Shown: positions 1,986 to 21,188 of the stretch, piece after piece
How the letters are laid out: every line of letters starts with the position of its first letter
Numbering within the stretch: the first letter of the stretch is position 1
Origin: a virus
Strand: one strand, 5' to 3'
Length of the DNA stretch: 21,364 bases
IMG/VR virus record: IMGVR_UViG_3300032285_004151
Location: 1-21,364 of that record
Program-made: the position numbers and the translations under genes
Notes under the pieces: generated by a model
Database searches by the model: none
What the model was told of the DNA's origin: nothing
What the model saw: the letters and a program-made list of their open reading frames with translations, nothing else

Positions 1986-2480
1986 CTAAGCTGTAGGGTA
2001 CTTTGGACGTGCAACGCCCATGATTAGAGAATATGCACGGTGACGTAAGAATACACCGTCTCCGTTAGCCTGTGAACCAGCATGCCCTTCTCCTGAGGTA
2101 TTGCCCTCATAGGTAGTTAGGATGCCTTTCTTAGAGTCATTACTTACAACGATACCGACGTGTTCAGTATCTGTTGGGTTCTTGTCAAAGTTAAAAAATA
2201 CAACGTCTCCCGCTTCAGCCTTACCTACGGGAACGATCTGCTTGTTCTTAGCAAACCATTGATAGCCGGCATCGCAAGATGCAAAGCCCTTCTTTGTAGA
2301 GGCGGCTACTAGTGATGCAAGACCTGCCTCATCAAAGCACTTAGATACGAACATTGCGCACCAAGGCTGGTGGTTCATTCCGTACCAAGTACCAAAAATT
2401 GTGTCGTTATTTGTTCCTTCTTTGTAACCTTGATCAGCGTACTTCTTTGCTGTGGCTACAACCGTTGCTGCGTTGGCCAT
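1986..2480 (-). CDS. CHAP-domain endolysin
   Basis: A 164-residue predicted peptidoglycan hydrolase (amidase or endopeptidase) of the CHAP family. The catalytic Cys is C41 in PWCAMFVS, the catalytic His is H107 in TEHVGIV, and the downstream acidic/amide position lies in YEGNT (residues 124-128). GDVVFF (residues 91-96) is a standard CHAP core strand. The whole protein is essentially one catalytic domain, with no cell-wall-binding domain and no signal peptide, so export would need a holin. The ATG has a GAGGAGC ribosome binding site and lies within the end of the upstream membrane-protein gene (25-base overlap). Neighbouring membrane proteins support a lysis role. Confidence 0.88.
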   Translation of the reverse strand: MANAATVVATAKKYADQGYKEGTNNDTIFGTWYGMNHQPWCAMFVSKCFDEAGLASLVAASTKKGFASCDAGYQWFAKNKQIVPVGKAEAGDVVFFNFDKNPTDTEHVGIVVSNDSKKGILTTYEGNTSGEGHAGSQANGDGVFLRHRAYSLIMGVARPKYPTA

Positions 2481-2788
2481 GAGTGCTCCTCGATATGTTG
2501 TTCGAACTTTCCTTCAAGCTTAGAAACAGTTTGGCCGATCTCGACTTGGCTTGTTCTTAGCTCTTGGACTAGTGGTAGTAACTGTAACTTTACCACATCT
2601 ACAAGGGAGCTTCCGCCATTGTGGCGCAACTCTGCCGAGACGTCTTTCATCTCTTCTTGAGTTTTTGCCCTACTTTCCTCAATTACGTGTTGGATTGCTT
2701 TCTTTAGCACAAACCACAGACCTCCTCCGATACCGGCCGTAACAAAAAAATATGAATAAATAATTGTGGCCCAGTCAGAAGCGGTCAT
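2456..2788 (-). CDS. Membrane protein with coiled coil, possible holin
   Basis: The 110-residue protein has one clear N-terminal transmembrane helix (about residues 7-29, YSYFFVTAGIGGGLWFVL). A long charged helical region follows, with heptad-like spacing at about 30-105 and an ELRHNGGSSL segment in the middle. It is the first gene of the leftward lysis unit and overlaps the endolysin gene by 25 bases, so translation is probably coupled. A single helix plus coiled coil next to an endolysin suggests a holin or a membrane-tethered lysis accessory. A small membrane-anchored virion protein is an alternative. A GGAGA ribosome binding site lies about 5 bases before the ATG. Confidence 0.7.
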   Translation of the reverse strand: MTASDWATIIYSYFFVTAGIGGGLWFVLKKAIQHVIEESRAKTQEEMKDVSAELRHNGGSSLVDVVKLQLLPLVQELRTSQVEIGQTVSKLEGKFEQHIEEHSWPTQQRL

Positions 2789-2884
2789 TAAACTCTCCGG
2801 GATTGTAGGTACGGTGGTGTAACTATGCCCTTAATAATACACCTTGTAATGCTAAACTCAACGTACTGACATAAGGAGAAACTG
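2789..2884. promoter_or_regulatory. Divergent intergenic region with promoters for both directions
   Basis: This is the only divergently transcribed gap in the window, so promoters for the leftward lysis unit and the rightward cassette should lie here. Rightward, TTAATA (2831-2836), a 16-base gap and TAAACT (2853-2858) make a weak promoter match. AAGGAG (2873-2878) is the ribosome binding site of the rightward gene. Leftward, TACAAT and TATTAT boxes fit TANNNT but lack good -35 boxes. The exact promoter assignment is uncertain. Confidence 0.45.
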
Positions 2885-4795
2885 ATAAAAGCACTGCGTC
2901 TATTCGCAGCACTATCCGTAGCATTATTTTCTGCATTTTATCCAGTATTAATCGTATCAACAGCATTTGGAGATGAAGCATCTCTTAGCGCGCCAAGACA
3001 ACTACAGGTTGAAGTAAGCGATGGCTTAGTCAAACTGGAGTGGGAAGCTCCTGCCCAAGGAACGGTAGAACGCTATGCAGTTTTCTTTGATTGCCCAACA
3101 AATTTTACTGGTTGTGGTCAAGGCTGGGCTATTCCAAGTGGTAATGGTGGGGATGCAAACGCACTAAAAACAACCTTGACTATACCTGTAGAGGTATTAA
3201 ACTCAATAGTACCTAGCGCAACTATGTGGGATTTTAGAGTTAGAGCTGATAACGATACGGATCATATTTATTCCGCACTTTCAAATGGAGTTAAAATTCG
3301 TCTTGCTCCAGCTCCAGCTCCCAAGCCAGATCCTCAGCCAAGTCAAACGCCGCAGCCAACAGGATCTCCGACTCCTTCTCCAAGCGCTTCACCCGAGGCA
3401 TTGCCAACAAGTAGCCCAACACCAAGCCCGAGCCCAAGCCCAGAACCAACACCGCAATCATCTCCATCACCTAGTCCTTCCGCTTCAATAGAACCAGCAC
3501 CGCAAATAACACCGTCCCCCACACCGGAGCCATCACAATCGCCAGTACCAAGTATTTCTCCATCACCTAATCCTACTCCTCAACCTGATCCAACACCGCC
3601 ACCTGCGCCAAGTTTTCCTGAAAACTCTGTTCACGCTACCGGCGATGAATGGGGAGAGATAACTTTATCTGCCCCACAAGGGTCCGTATTTACTCAAGTT
3701 TACTTTGCTAACTATGGTTTACCTATCGATTATCACATAAATTCAGAGTGCTCTGCAGATGTAACAAGCTATGTTGCTGGTGCGTTTATTGGTAAAAATA
3801 CTGCAACGGTTGGGGTTACAAATACAGATATAAATGGTGATCCTTGCTATGGGATAGGCAAGCACATGTCTATTGTTTTAGTTTATGGGCCTGCGCCTAT
3901 AGTTCCACCAGTGGACCCTGCCCCAGCAGGTCCTGTTCTGGATCCTTCTCCAGATCCTGCTCCACGGCCGGAGCCTGTAGTTCAGCCACCTGCTGTAGAA
4001 CCTGCGCCGCAACCTGCGCCAGAGCCTGAGCCTGCCCCTGCGCCAGAAGTTCAGCCTGCGCCCGAGCCTGCTCCCGATCCAGCCCCTGAACCAGAGCCTG
4101 AGCCTGCCCCTGCGCCAGACCCACAACCTGAGCCAGCTCCTGAGCCCGAGCCAGCGCCAGACCCAGCACCCGCACCTGATCCTCAGCCTGCGCCCGCACC
4201 AGATCCTGCGCCTTTGCCAGAGCCTGCACCAGAGCCTGCACCTGCTCCCGAACCTTTACCTGCTCCTGATCCTGCACCTGAACCTCCTGTAGTAGAGGGG
4301 CTTATTCCAAACAGCCCTGACCAATTACCAGAGGATACACCTAAAGAAGCTCCAAAGGAACTTCTGGTACCGCATATCCAAGAAGATAAGCCTGGTGTAG
4401 AAAACGGCGGTATTGAATTTTTTGGTACTAAGAGCCAACCTCAAGTAGTTCAGGAAGACGGAACCCTAACTCCTCCGCCACCATTACCTGGTTCAGGAGA
4501 CCCTATTCCTCCTGATGCGATTACTATTTCGGAAACTTTTATTGGACAACCAGGTGGAGTTACATTTAATGCACCTGATATTGCCGTTCCCGTTGAGCTA
4601 GTTCCCGTTGAAGTGCCAGCTGCTTTAGACGCCATCCCTGGAGCTGGTGAAGCTATACAGGCAGTAAACCAAGCGTACGTTGCCCTTGCAAATATTGGAA
4701 ACGATATGTCCCCAATTACACGTAAGAAAGCTAAAAAGATTCTAGTTGCAACAATTGTTGCTTCTGGCATTTCACAACTAAGAAGGAGATTCTAA
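2885..4795 (+). CDS. Exported multidomain protein with FN3-like and SUEL lectin-like domains and Pro-rich linkers
   Basis: About 636 residues. The N-terminus ([14 protein letters not shown]...) is a typical Sec signal peptide of about 30 residues. An FN3-like domain follows (about 32-141, [22 protein letters not shown]), then a Pro/Ser/Thr linker (142-245). A lectin-like domain (about 248-335) has the SUEL/Gal-lectin hallmarks FANYG, IGK and [11 protein letters not shown] second Pro linker of PAPEPEP/PAPDP repeats covers about 336-470. The C-terminal region ends in a basic, weakly hydrophobic helix ([23 protein letters not shown]). The protein is probably exported and could bind sugars on a cell or virion surface. 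No ATG, GTG or TTG lies in frame between the upstream stop (2867) and TTG 3176, which would cut into the FN3 domain. AAGGAG is 6 bases before ATA 2885 and 3 before CTG 2882, so one of these is the likely start. The domain calls rest on motif reading only. Confidence 0.75.
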
Positions 4796-4971
4796 TGAAA
4801 GGCATCTTGCAAGATCTAGCTAACCAAATTTGGACCTTTGTGGGTTTATTTGCGGCATGGCTAGTGCTAACAGGTAGCGCCAAAACTGTTGTTGGGGATG
4901 CAATTCTTATCTCCATCTTTTTATGGGTAGCTACATACCGACTACGAAACCCTAAGGATAAAGATGAATAA
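4795..4971 (+). CDS. Small two-helix membrane protein, holin-like
   Basis: A 58-residue protein starts at an ATG that overlaps the stop of the lectin-like gene (TAATG) with AAGGAG 6 bases upstream. Two hydrophobic helices (about residues 13-27, TFVGLFAAWLVLTG, and 32-48, VVGDAILISIFLWVAT) are joined by a short GSAK turn. A charged tail follows (RLRNPKDKDE). This hairpin layout with a positive C-terminus is typical of small phage holins. It might instead assist the exported protein encoded just upstream. It overlaps the next gene by 8 bases. It is too short for many gene callers. Confidence 0.72.
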   Translation: MKGILQDLANQIWTFVGLFAAWLVLTGSAKTVVGDAILISIFLWVATYRLRNPKDKDE

Positions 4972-5254
4972 AATAAATAACACTATTGCTCGCATCTTTG
5001 CAGTATTTGCCGCATCTGGCTTATCTGTAATCGGTGCTGGAGCTTTGGCTGGCATTTCAACTATTAAAGCAGTAGCTGTAGCTGGAATTACCGGCGTAGC
5101 AACTGTTGTAGAAAGACTAGCTCGATCATTTCTAGATGATGGAAAGCTAGATAACTACGAAATTAACGCAGCTTTTTCTCAGATTGATAACAAGTCTTTA
5201 ACTGAAGAGGATTTAATCCTAGAAAAGAAAAAAGGCCCTAATTCTAGGGCCTAA
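4964..5254 (+). CDS. Small membrane protein, holin-like
   Basis: The 96-residue protein has a short basic N-terminus. Two hydrophobic Ala/Gly/Val-rich helices follow (about 8-30, IFAVFAASGLSVIGAGALAG, and 34-49, IKAVAVAGITGVATVV). A soluble, acidic C-terminal half ends EEDLILEKKKGPNSRA. The segment LDDGKLDNYEINAAFSQID looks like a small helical or EF-hand-like loop without a full set of calcium ligands. The layout resembles phage holins and other small actinophage membrane proteins. Function is inferred from size and topology only. Its last codons are built into a hairpin that terminates the opposite-strand operon. Confidence 0.7.
   Translation: MNKINNTIARIFAVFAASGLSVIGAGALAGISTIKAVAVAGITGVATVVERLARSFLDDGKLDNYEINAAFSQIDNKSLTEEDLILEKKKGPNSRA
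5228..5252 (-). terminator. Intrinsic terminator between convergent units
   Basis: A perfect 8-bp stem, AGGCCCTA (5233-5240) with TAGGGCCT (5245-5252), has a 4-base loop. On the minus strand it continues into TTTTTT (5233-5228), a proper U-tract, so it ends the long leftward operon just after the metallophosphoesterase. On the plus strand the stem lacks a U-tract but may still slow the rightward transcript. Confidence 0.8.
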
Positions 5255-8338: not shown

Positions 8339-9215
8339 CGGTAGTTTCCCCTCTAAATGGCTTACAACGTGTACATCCTAACACAGAATCTAATGAGCAC
8401 TGAGGTGGTCGGTTATTCTCTACAGCCCAAACTACGTCAGATGCTGCCTCAAAATATGGGGCTGAAAAAGAAGGGTCATATGCAACAGTAAACTCTTTAT
8501 AATCCTGATTAGACTTAAGCTCATAAATAAAAACTATCTCGTTTGGAGCAGAGGGAAGCGAACCTTCTTCAGCCATAATGTGACAAAGGTGTAGGTATAC
8601 CTGTCCTTGAAGTTGGTGGGTTCTAAAAGGTTGACGGATATTACGCCAAGCTGTATCTAGATCATTACTTCCGCCAAATAAACTTGGGGCTTCGATACGA
8701 ATAGTTCCGGCACCGATTGTTTTAATTTCAATAAGAAAATCTTCGCCTAAACCCTTAACCCAACCATCTGAATGGCCCGAGATTCTATGGGCTTTGCTAA
8801 ATAGGGGTACCTCTTCGTACTCTAGATCCCGAGAGGCAATGCCACGAATATCTTTAGATGTAGCCCAAGTAAAGTCCCCGGTACGGTGATTATGCCACTT
8901 GCCAAACAGAACACCCATCTCACGCAAGTAACCTTGCCACTTAGCGTGAGCACCGTGCCCGGTATCAAAGATAGATTGAAGACGGAGTGTGGGGCGCTCT
9001 CTGGTCTCTACGTAGTTACCATTGAGAGCGTGGTAGGCCGCGAGCGCACACCACTCCGGCTTAATTATATCAGAGGGATGAAGAACGGTTTGACTACGTT
9101 CTTCAAAAGGTTTTGATAGAATATGCCGCTCTATCTCACCCATCAAGCGAGTATCTCTCTTTTTTGTTTCTAGATAATTCTTCAACTTAATACTAGATAC
9201 TGCTTGCTCTTTCAT
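8325..9215 (-). CDS. Cas4/RecB-like PD-(D/E)XK exonuclease with putative Fe-S cluster
   Basis: The 296-residue protein carries RecB/Cas4-type nuclease motifs in order: H87 (FDTGHGAH), D150 (ISGHSDGW), E163-x-K165 (LIEIKT) and a QxxxY-like motif (HQLQGQVYL, about 200-208). Four Cys frame the nuclease domain: C56 (PEWC) and C273, C281 and C284 near the C-terminus (CSLDSVLGCTRC). This is the one-plus-three arrangement that holds a 4Fe-4S cluster in Cas4 and AddB-type nucleases. It probably resects DNA ends for RecA-dependent recombination. No CRISPR array or other cas gene is visible, so a CRISPR role is not supported. The start overlaps the stop of the WhiB gene (TAATG). Confidence 0.85.
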   Translation of the reverse strand: MKEQAVSSIKLKNYLETKKRDTRLMGEIERHILSKPFEERSQTVLHPSDIIKPEWCALAAYHALNGNYVETRERPTLRLQSIFDTGHGAHAKWQGYLREMGVLFGKWHNHRTGDFTWATSKDIRGIASRDLEYEEVPLFSKAHRISGHSDGWVKGLGEDFLIEIKTIGAGTIRIEAPSLFGGSNDLDTAWRNIRQPFRTHQLQGQVYLHLCHIMAEEGSLPSAPNEIVFIYELKSNQDYKEFTVAYDPSFSAPYFEAASDVVWAVENNRPPQCSLDSVLGCTRCKPFRGETTDDTK

Positions 9216-9535
9216 TAAAATCCCTTATCTTGTTCCAGCCATTGGTCCAGTGTTAATCCGCGTTTAGTGTATTTTCTTTTAAGTGCGTTTCTTTCTCGAT
9301 GGCTCATACCACCAAAGATTCCATGCATCTCGTCAATAAGTATAGCCTCTTTTAGGCATTCTTTCCTAACGGGGCATGGAGGCCTGCCATCTCTGCCGTA
9401 GCAAATAGACTTTGCTTTATCAGCAATAGGCTTGTATAGATTCTTATCTCTAGGAGGAAAGAAAATTTCAGTATCCTCTCCTTTGCACTTAGCTTCATAG
9501 CGCCAAGCCCAGGGAGAGTTGTCGTCTTTATCCAA
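9215..9535 (-). CDS. WhiB-family Fe-S protein with extended Cys spacing
   Basis: A 106-residue WhiB-like regulator. Four conserved Cys (C17, C45, C54, C60) would bind a 4Fe-4S cluster. The GIFGG turn (residues 72-76) followed by a basic segment (RKYTKRG) is the usual WhiB C-terminal signature. In host proteins the middle pair is CxxC. Here it is C-x8-C because GRDGRPP-type residues are inserted. WhiB proteins bind the principal sigma factor and alter transcription. The phage copy may redirect host RNA polymerase or repress the host gene (shown for mycobacteriophage TM4 WhiBTM4). The start is TTG 9535-9533 with GAGGTG 5 bases upstream, immediately after the upstream TGA. It sits among recombination genes. 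Confidence 0.85.
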   Translation of the reverse strand: MDKDDNSPWAWRYEAKCKGEDTEIFFPPRDKNLYKPIADKAKSICYGRDGRPPCPVRKECLKEAILIDEMHGIFGGMSHRERNALKRKYTKRGLTLDQWLEQDKGF

Positions 9536-19514: not shown

Positions 19515-19716
19515 CGTCTTCCTCCTCTAAGGGCTCTTCCGGCTTATAATCTTCCGGCATATCGGCTAGTGTAGGGGCAGTAGCTATAGTTCCGCAAAGT
19601 GCGCACTCCATATCAAGAAAATACATAGCAACTTGGTAGTCCCTAAATATTGTCTGCACTTTCCACAGCTCAGATCCGCAAGGGCATACGTGTGTAGGTA
19701 CGCCCCTAATGTCCAT
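19504..19716 (-). CDS. Small zinc-ribbon-like protein
   Basis: The 70-residue protein starts MDIRGVPTHVCPCGSELWKV and has CPCG (11-14) and CALC (38-41) knuckles that could hold one zinc. An acidic tail (PEEPLEEEDDEW) follows. The ATG at 19716-19714 overlaps the WhiB stop and has AAAAGG 6 bases upstream. A longer frame opening at 19812 would lie deep inside the WhiB gene and is not supported. Neighbouring Cys-rich genes suggest a set of metal-binding regulators, but the function is unknown. Confidence 0.68.
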   Translation of the reverse strand: MDIRGVPTHVCPCGSELWKVQTIFRDYQVAMYFLDMECALCGTIATAPTLADMPEDYKPEEPLEEEDDEW

Positions 19717-19978
19717 TCTTAACCTTTTTATTGCGTTGGCTCCTAATGCGAGTACGCTGACGTGGAGTTGTTCCCGCCCAGATGCCTTCAAGCCAAGGAG
19801 TCTGTAATGCATACTCTAAACAATCTGCTACTAAGGTGCAAGAATTACAAATACTTCTAGCTTCACTTAGCTTTGTTGGATCTATATATTCTTCTGGAAA
19901 GAACAAGTCTGAATTAGATTCATTACAAAGCTGCTCCCCGTTAAATGGGTAGTCGCCGTATTCAAAATTAAGCACCAT
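19706..19978 (-). CDS. WhiB-family Fe-S transcription regulator
   Basis: The 90-residue protein has the four WhiB Cys in canonical order: C18, then C44-x2-C47 and C53 (CNSCTLVADC). A GIWAGT turn (65-70) follows, with a very basic C-terminus (RQRTRIRSQRNKKVK) for DNA contact. LFFPE before the first Cys pair is typical. It should carry a 4Fe-4S cluster and act with the host principal sigma factor. The ATG at 19978 is preferred because upstream in-frame starts fall within the helicase gene. It overlaps the helicase stop by 11 bases and the zinc-ribbon start by 11 bases. It is the second WhiB in the window and is clearly divergent from the one at 9215-9535. Confidence 0.87.
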   Translation of the reverse strand: MVLNFEYGDYPFNGEQLCNESNSDLFFPEEYIDPTKLSEARSICNSCTLVADCLEYALQTPWLEGIWAGTTPRQRTRIRSQRNKKVKNGH

Positions 19979-21188
19979 ATTCTTGGAATCGCCCCTCTTC
20001 CCAGTCCCATAAGAGCTCAACTTCTGCTGGCCCGGTGTTACGACTTGCGACAATCTTTAACAAACGAGAACTATCATCATTTTCATCTTGACGCTGCAGC
20101 GCAAAGATAACGTCAGAATCTTGATGGAATGAAGATGAAAAAGCAATAGAGTCTGCGGTTATCTGCCCACCACGTACTTTGCTATTTAAAACCTGAGTTG
20201 TTTGAACTACAGGAATGCTAAATTTTTGTGCGACTCTCTTTAGTGATTGAGTTATATTTCTAAGTGCTATCGGGGTACCGCGTTCTCCCGATATCTCGTC
20301 AGTCATTAAATAAACTCCGTCTACAAAAAGAATATTTGGTTGAAGTTTTTCTAGCTTTATAGATAATTGAGAAACACTATAAGCTGAGATTGATTCAGTA
20401 AGATAAAACTTGTGCATGTTTTCCATGCCAGTAAGCATCTTCTGATAACGAGCTTCTTCGTCAGGCTTAAGACAACCTCTCTCTAATCTACCGCTTGAAA
20501 TATGTGCACGCATGGCGTCATGACGTCGCTGCTGTTCTAGGTTACTCATCTCAAAAGATTGAAAAGCAGGAACCCATCCGTCCTTGTGTACGTTAACAGC
20601 CATTTGCATAGCAAGCACTGATTTACCTGTTTTAGGTGGAGCAATAATTGTAATTAACTGACCTGCCTGTAAACCTGCAGTTGCTAGATCCATAACTTGG
20701 AAACCTGTTGCAACTCCTATAAGACCATTTGGTCGAGTTTTAATGTTTAGGTAATCATCGTATCTACCCATAGGTTGATTTGTAAGATCTATGTCTTCAC
20801 TTACTGGTGCGCCATCTTCTAAAAGGGAAGAATAACCTTTACCCATAATTGCAATAGCGGCATTATGATCTCCAGACTCAATTGCTGAAGCGGCTTGTTG
20901 AATTACCTCGATAGATTTATTGCGACGTCTAAATTCAATAAGCTGATCTAAAAGGTAATCTAAAGAATCATCTACGGCAAGAAGCGAATAAGTTGGGAAA
21001 TTATCTTTTACTGTAGTTGCTGTAGGTACTTCTTGATACTTAGTCCAGTGTTCCTTTAAAAAACGCCATACTGATTGGTTGCTCTCAACATAGAACCAAG
21101 ACTCTTCCACACCACGTTCTAAAAGGGGAGCTATATCTCTAGTTCTAATTGCGCGAGATAAAAGCCGGACCTCATTATCTGCCGCCAT
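19968..21188 (-). CDS. dnaB: DnaB-like replicative helicase
   Basis: The 406-residue protein has a DnaB-type N-terminal helical domain (about 1-110) and a RecA-like motor. The motor shows Walker A APPKTGKS (183-190), E213 in FQSFEMSN, Walker B ILFVDG (286-291) and a late SSSFHQDSDVIFALQRQ segment that is typical of DnaB motif 4. It should unwind DNA at the replication fork and recruit the primase. The core is shorter than cellular DnaB (about 470 residues), as in many phages. GGAGGGG lies about 4 bases before the ATG. It overlaps the upstream truncated gene by 14 bases. Confidence 0.88.
   Translation of the reverse strand: MAADNEVRLLSRAIRTRDIAPLLERGVEESWFYVESNQSVWRFLKEHWTKYQEVPTATTVKDNFPTYSLLAVDDSLDYLLDQLIEFRRRNKSIEVIQQAASAIESGDHNAAIAIMGKGYSSLLEDGAPVSEDIDLTNQPMGRYDDYLNIKTRPNGLIGVATGFQVMDLATAGLQAGQLITIIAPPKTGKSVLAMQMAVNVHKDGWVPAFQSFEMSNLEQQRRHDAMRAHISSGRLERGCLKPDEEARYQKMLTGMENMHKFYLTESISAYSVSQLSIKLEKLQPNILFVDGVYLMTDEISGERGTPIALRNITQSLKRVAQKFSIPVVQTTQVLNSKVRGGQITADSIAFSSSFHQDSDVIFALQRQDENDDSSRLLKIVASRNTGPAEVELLWDWEEGRFQEYGA

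Follow-up and report, generated by a model that had tools for sequence, protein, structure and literature searches.

A SUEL-type lectin domain in a predicted surface protein of uncultured freshwater actinophages

Introduction

Most known SUEL or rhamnose-binding lectins (RBLs) come from animals and plant enzymes. What would such a lectin do in a protein encoded by a virus of bacteria? The question is raised by IMG/VR virus record IMGVR_UViG_3300032285_004151, a stretch of 21,364 bases analysed here in full and referred to as the window. An earlier examination of the letters of this DNA (the sequence-only reading) had proposed a lectin-like module within an exported phage protein. The phage origin is borne out by the record itself and by its gene content. 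Two WhiB transcription-factor genes (9215-9535 and 19706-20053), a mark of actinophages, occur together with genes for RecA, a DnaB-type helicase, a primase, an SNF2-type helicase and a dNMP kinase, and this combination identifies the window as a phage of actinobacteria. Its DNA polymerase I is nearest to those of Streptomyces phages, and relatives of its CHAP endolysin are also found mostly in Streptomyces phages. The window is an uncultured virus of freshwater actinobacteria, organisms that are among the commonest lake bacteria.

The lectin gene and its start codon

The gene for the lectin protein (2885..4795, plus strand) specifies 636 amino acids from an apparent ATA start to a TAA stop. 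As the sequence-only reading had it, this is the window's only large plus-strand protein, and the residue range given there for the lectin, 248-335, is consistent with a start at 2885 and a length of 636 residues. A listing of open reading frames with the usual start codons yields only 539 residues, beginning at a TTG at 3176, and the signal peptide would be lost from that version. AUA initiation is very rare. For this gene it is indicated by conservation and by a survey of starts. A Shine-Dalgarno sequence, AAGGAG (2873..2878, plus strand), lies 6 nucleotides upstream of the ATA. The arrangement AAGGAG-N6-ATAAAAGCACTGCG is kept in the window and in three related phage loci (L003, L004 and L005), where the signal peptide begins at the ATA. 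In L004 and L005 a TAG stands immediately 5' of the ATA, so that a longer frame is excluded in those two. ATA is also found at the same place, with a Shine-Dalgarno-like sequence, in L007 (where that sequence is weak), L011, L103 and L104. The ATA positions are L003:5938, L004:5938, L005:5938, L007:5699, L011:5732, L103:5851 and L104:5512, the corresponding window region being 2873-2887. Among 46 family starts picked by our rule (some picks are uncertain), TTG is the commonest (23) and ATG is rare (4). This usage suggests weak initiation for a membrane-targeted surface protein.

Architecture and export of the protein

From its N-terminus the protein consists of a signal peptide, an FN3-like domain, a Pro/Ser stalk, the SUEL domain, a Pro/Glu/Ala stalk and a conserved C-terminal domain. 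The signal peptide (2885..2971, plus strand, with a presumed downstream boundary) is recognised from the sequence and from an n/h/c pattern found family-wide, and it is without a lipobox. A simple signal-peptide rule is passed by 46 of 55 family members (several of the failures are cut at the 5' end) versus 0 of the 21 other proteins of the window. The leader that had been read in the sequence is thus present and kept among relatives, and the lectin protein is very probably an exported surface protein. It contains no LPXTG motif (one match occurs in the 55 relatives), and anchoring by sortase was rejected because the motif is absent from the window protein.

The FN3-like domain (2984..3310, plus strand) had also been claimed, and here the outcome is mixed. 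Residues 34-142 of the window protein have no match to Pfam fn3, and the tentative assignment draws on relatives: PF00041 is matched by 7 of 55, with a best E of 1.2e-7, and a distant match occurs in phage DSL-LC01. The FN3-like copy of L011 scores 22.7 bits against a PF00041 cut-off of 25. With the FN3 part alone, no significant match was obtained among solved structures. A Pfam SusE match in the window protein (E 0.04) is at chance level and was discarded.

Both of the long Pro-rich linkers that had been described are present, as judged by composition. Stalk 1 (3311..3622, plus strand) is Pro/Ser-rich, with 104 residues and 39% Pro. Stalk 2 (3890..4294, plus strand) is Pro/Glu/Ala-rich and repetitive, with 135 residues and 47% Pro; as an extended Pro-rich chain it would presumably span about 40 nm.

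A SUEL domain with a predicted sugar site

The SUEL/RBL domain occupies 3626..3889 on the plus strand, a placement based on profile searches, phmmer, the predicted fold and the site residues. Within the 21 kb record, Pfam PF02140 (SUEL_Lectin) has a match at 3665-3874 (E 6.4e-6). When the isolated segment is compared with all of Pfam, the match has E 1.7e-4 and 22.3 bits; since the curated cut-off is 31.4, this match by itself is borderline. The L003 domain likewise falls below the cut-off (21.0 bits), and that of another relative, L014, exceeds it (36.7 bits). The limits of the Pfam match leave out the N-terminal Glu of the sugar site, and 3626-3889 is a good domain boundary. Against solved structures, phmmer finds a sea-urchin RBL (5h4s, 3.6e-8), CSL3 (1.8e-4) and RemA (1.6e-3). 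A profile built from four phage domains strengthens all three, to 4e-29, 9.3e-15 and 1.9e-13 (RemA entry 8gl6), respectively.

An AlphaFold2 model of the window domain, made from 44 aligned phage domains, has pLDDT 94.2 and pTM 0.86. It matches eleven SUEL/latrophilin lectin entries with Z 10.8-12.4: the lectin domain of rice beta-galactosidase at 12.4, SUL-I at 11.6, latrophilins at 10.8-11.6 and CSL3 at 10.8. Unrelated structures in the fold search reach Z of about 5 and below, with the exception of the Plasmodium P113 and RIPR chains at 8.1-8.7. The module had been proposed to be of SUEL type, and a confident match to an unrelated beta-sandwich would have spoken against it; no such structure matched the model better than the SUEL lectins. 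Because L014 is above the cut-off, the profiles match solved RBLs, the fold is confidently predicted and the site residues are kept, it is virtually certain that 3626-3889 is a SUEL/RBL domain.

The primary sugar site of CSL3 consists of Glu7, Tyr27, Asn74, Asp79, Gly83 and Lys86 (PMC3269628), and in the lectin of latrophilin-1 a Glu and a Lys, Glu42 and Lys120, are essential (PMC2430599). All six CSL3 residues are kept in the window domain, and they are nearly invariant in 53 phage domains. The Glu equivalent to CSL3 Glu7 and latrophilin-1 Glu42, a sugar contact, is at 3647..3649 (51 of 53), the Tyr27 equivalent at 3713..3715 (53 of 53) and the Asn74 equivalent at 3821..3823 (53 of 53). The motif Asp-Pro-Cys-Tyr-Gly (the DPC motif, 3839..3853) supplies Asp79 (53 of 53), the seventh RBL cysteine (52) and Gly83 (51). 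The Lys equivalent to CSL3 Lys86 and latrophilin-1 Lys120 is at 3860..3862 (53 of 53). All of these are on the plus strand. A complete predicted rhamnose/galactose site in the window SUEL domain is thus well supported by residue conservation. For scale, the single RBL domain of latrophilin-1 binds sugar weakly, with a Kd of 1.8 mM (PMC2430599).

The lectin module has two cysteines only, as had been noted. These are residues 289 and 321, which correspond to Cys4 (3749..3751, plus strand; kept in 52 of 53 phage domains) and Cys7 of the eight cysteines of animal RBLs. In animal RBLs these two are disulfide-bonded to each other (PMC3269628). The eight cysteines and four disulfides of the classical animal egg RBLs are not found in the window domain, and since Cys4 and Cys7 alone are kept it is not filed in that subgroup.

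Spread of the family and exchange of the head

Queries with the FN3 region and the C-terminal domain detected relatives in uncultured phages. L003 has the same architecture as the window protein. What L004 and L005 lack is the SUEL domain; their signal peptide, FN3-like domain, stalks and C-terminus are all retained. In L004, identity to the window is 71-95% across the remainder of the protein and the neighbouring genes. The absence of the SUEL domain from proteins that are otherwise kept indicates that the head is an exchangeable module between Pro-rich stalks. Of 55 family members, 25 have PA14, 7 have fn3 and 2 have SUEL (at E 0.01). An alternative, positive selection acting on the head, was rejected. 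The SUEL-domain dN/dS between the window and L003 is 0.17, which is purifying selection, and in this pair variation would therefore come by module exchange and not by fast point change. The stalks also vary. L006, L011, L014 and L016 have, in place of the Pro-rich stalk, long stretches rich in Ala, Lys and Glu that are probably coiled coils.

Searching viral contigs with the window's SUEL domain as a single sequence brought up no relative, and an alignment query found 63 viral loci. Each of eleven long phage records has exactly one SUEL domain, and it occurs only in a frame of this gene's length. Most long records without SUEL have PA14. In one of these (the L032 record, G005:62075-62428) PA14 is in a separate frame of 318 residues, and the surface protein there has neither SUEL nor PA14; the 318-residue protein is possibly a tail protein or a second surface protein.

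Stalks with exchangeable lectin heads resemble fibres, and phages do carry sugar-binding domains on their virions. The protein might then be a head or tail fibre whose lectin tip binds host cells or particles. PHROGs searched with the window protein gave nothing, including no tail or capsid family, and the PHROG tail matches that were seen are isolated, in single relatives. The Sec-type signal peptide makes a virion fibre unlikely, and together with the basic, hydrophobic C-terminal end it is a family-wide feature. With homologues also in what look to be bacterial chromosomes (see below), a virion role is most improbable.

Among 50,697 GenBank phage records the family was not found, except for a distant, fused form in phage DSL-LC01. 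Searches of the open-access literature for phage RBLs, for SUEL in phages and for Nanopelagicales phage surface proteins turned up nothing relevant. The SUEL domain itself is already known, and two proteins of uncultured phages carry its name; the family, its anchor, its partner and the swapping of heads are apparently undescribed in that literature.

The C-terminal domain, its partner and the gene module

The conserved C-terminal domain (4298..4792, plus strand, about 165 residues) is 87-88% identical in L003, L004 and L005 and was detected in 21 viral loci and 3 bacterial genomes. At its end the sequence NIGNDMSP[IV]TRKKAKK, which hardly varies, is followed by a hydrophobic segment and RRRF. 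The short hydrophobic helix (4739..4780, plus strand), with RRRF after it, is presumed from hydropathy and an AlphaFold2 helix to be a membrane anchor. Its mean hydropathy is 1.92 over 14 residues and 0.69 over 19 residues, the latter below the usual transmembrane level. The model of the whole domain has a helical end, with pLDDT 76 and pTM 0.45 (low overall confidence). The C-terminus of the lectin protein would thus be held in the membrane.

The last base of the lectin gene is also the first of a gene for a partner of 58 residues with two hydrophobic helices (4795..4971, plus strand). A query with this partner found 132 viral loci, of which 80 were kept; at nearly all of them the partner comes immediately after a surface gene that encodes this C-terminus. 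In phage DSL-LC01 the surface protein itself ends in a partner-like stretch (22% identity, so that homology is judged from pattern and position). L122, L130, L145, L149 and L151 have this fusion too. The partner follows or is fused to the product of 45 of 47 complete distinct phage SUEL genes. An automatic pattern detected it behind 34 and it is fused in 5; six of the other eight (L148, L159, L162, L164, L166 and L169) have it on reading of the sequences. It is absent at L156 and L167, whose SUEL proteins seem to be of another kind and do not have this C-terminus. The surface protein and the 58-residue partner probably form a membrane-anchored complex.

Behind the partner gene is one for a membrane protein of 96 residues (4964..5254, plus strand), which is present at 66 of the 80 partner loci. 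It matches phrog_26427 and, weakly, phrog_443 (holin). The 'nuclease' label of phrog_26427 is a misfit for a small hydrophobic protein and was set aside; the product is more likely to be holin-like. These proteins share a conserved tail, LARxFLDDGKLxxxEINxAF. The CHAP endolysin gene (1986..2480, minus strand) is divergent from the lectin gene in the window. A CHAP gene is near the module at 43 of the 80 loci, co-directional in 38 of those 43 and often directly after the 96-residue gene. A gene for a protein of 110 residues with a hydrophobic segment (2456..2788, minus strand) adjoins the endolysin gene; a Pfam Rpb4 match of this protein was below the Pfam cut-off and was not accepted.

Such surroundings raise the possibility of an accessory role in lysis, in which a wall-spanning protein and its partner would aid envelope disruption, for example by holding endolysin or holin at the wall. 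A CHAP endolysin and small membrane proteins stand beside the module at many loci, and in some phages the partner is fused to the surface protein. Exchangeable lectin heads, however, are not needed for lysis. There is also no lipobox in the first 45 residues, the first Cys being residue 70, so the protein is not a spanin of the known lipoprotein type, and that candidate was rejected. The bacterial homologues bear on the same question.

Homologues in bacterial genomes

The partner query also detected three contigs of actinobacterial metagenome-assembled genomes (MAGs). Each has a gene with the C-terminal anchor, a partner nearby and host-type neighbours (L110:6508-7992, L109:1701-3887 and L108:10704-12836). 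In L110 the gene and partner lie between PAP2-type and EamA-type genes, near threonyl-tRNA synthetase and cytochrome bc genes (names by reading), and this contig looks chromosomal from its gene content. The neighbours in L108 and L109 are host-type genes, also by reading. No lysis gene was recognised in the flanks read at the three loci. That three bacterial genomes keep surface protein and partner among host-type genes in this way is a further argument against a lysis accessory, and such a role is rather improbable.

A profile of the C-terminal domain gave matches in 3 of the 296 genomes from one actinobacterial order, all of them the MAGs just described, and a phylum sample of 396 genomes added none. 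Such rarity in the host order favours transfer between phage and host over a core host gene. The order is taken to be 'Ca. Nanopelagicales' from the freshwater origin, the MAG names and genomes of mostly 1.0-1.5 Mb. The genome that contains L108 has a further copy of the C-terminal domain (L177, G003:C114:12416-12616) that carries an in-frame TAG and seems to have decayed. In another genome of the order (L178), a SUEL domain and an FN3-like stretch are both part of a large repeat protein of surface type.

The gene could be a passenger of host origin that replaces or adds to a host surface protein and has no role in infection, given that the same anchor and partner exist in actinobacterial genomes. 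It is nevertheless far commoner in phages (132 viral partner loci) than in the host order (3 of 296 genomes), and one SUEL gene per phage, a conserved gene order and purifying selection also argue against a passenger. This explanation is very unlikely.

A possible role in masking the surface of infected cells

The sequence-only reading had suggested host-cell adhesion, exclusion of competing phages or an altered host surface, any of which may apply; the C-terminal anchor, the partner, the exchange of heads and the ATA start emerged from the present analysis. The best explanation, which we hold at about even strength, is a phage-encoded, anchored lectin on the infected actinobacterium that would mask surface glycans. 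The protein would be exported by way of its signal peptide, its C-terminus held in the membrane, and the stalk would take the lectin through the cell wall. Late in infection the lectin would bind glycans of the host surface. Receptor glycans covered or cross-linked in this manner could keep other phages out (superinfection exclusion), and covered glycans could also spare the progeny from binding to infected cells and debris. Variation in host surface glycans might be the reason why phages exchange heads. Exclusion or masking as such is given something close to, at most equal to, an even chance. Late timing is proposed because of gene order only, and late expression of the lectin gene is to be read as presumptive. 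Several points count against the masking explanation. A single RBL domain binds sugar weakly, as in latrophilin-1, and some receptor RBLs may have protein as their ligand. The 11 long phage records have no second SUEL domain in a tail protein, which would have pointed to a target shared by tail and lectin. The predicted hydrophobic C-terminal segment is also short, and its AlphaFold2 model is of low overall confidence.

An adhesin would make a different use of the same protein. It would attach the infected cell to neighbouring cells, particles or mucilage, and either new hosts would be close by when progeny emerge or the cell would be shielded from grazers during phage replication. PA14 and SUEL both occur in adhesins, and among PDB entries the nearest bacterial RBL belongs to RemA, a surface adhesin involved in gliding (PMC8056085). 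The large host-order repeat protein with its FN3-like stretch and SUEL domain points in the same direction. Proximity to the endolysin gene, on the other hand, suggests late expression, which would be too late for the cell to benefit for long, and free-living planktonic hosts would presumably gain little from aggregation. Adhesion is possible but unlikely.

On the masking explanation, exchangeable lectin heads (SUEL, PA14 or other) on an anchored stalk with a two-helix partner would constitute a new phage surface-display system. It would be present in many freshwater actinophage lineages, would remodel the glycans of infected cells and would evolve by head swaps; the case for this wider proposal is evenly balanced. 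The SUEL fold and a complete predicted sugar site occur in many phage proteins, and these are nearly always of one exported type with a common anchor and partner. If the proteins do coat infected cells, freshwater actinophages would use lectin swaps to govern who competes at the cell surface. This idea is testable because 'Ca. Planktophila' and its phages are now in culture (PMC10202952).

Comparison with known systems

The animal egg RBLs (SUEL, CSL3 and SUL-I; PF02140) share with the phage domain the fold (Z 10.8-11.6), the YG and DPC motifs and the six CSL3 site residues. They differ in having eight cysteines and tandem repeats, whereas the phage protein has two cysteines and a single domain between stalks. 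In structure the best match is rice beta-galactosidase 1 (5iaz), whose C-terminal lectin domain aligns over 93 residues with an rmsd of 2.1 (Z 12.4). That domain is attached to an enzyme, and its sequence identity to the phage domain is 24%. RemA of Flavobacterium johnsoniae (8gl6; profile E 1.9e-13) is a bacterial surface adhesin whose RBL is without most of the eight cysteines. It is, however, a host gene product exported by Type 9 secretion and has no anchor or partner in common with the phage protein.

Closer relatives are found in phages. Two proteins of uncultured Caudovirales phages that are named as containing a SUEL lectin domain, A0A6J5NGG5 and A0A6J5PD65, have domains 45% and 39% identical to that of the window (TM 0.88 and 0.84) in proteins of 652 and 657 residues, and are described by database names only in the sources read. 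WJZ48438 of Actinomycetia phage DSL-LC01, annotated as hypothetical, is likewise exported and stalked, with an FN3-like domain 40% identical and a C-terminal membrane part like the 58-residue partner. It differs in its other head domains, its Thr-rich stalks and the fusion of the partner. For phage superinfection-exclusion surface proteins, as a general class, no sequence relation to the lectin protein was found; they are, as it is predicted to be, encoded by the phage and exported to the host envelope.
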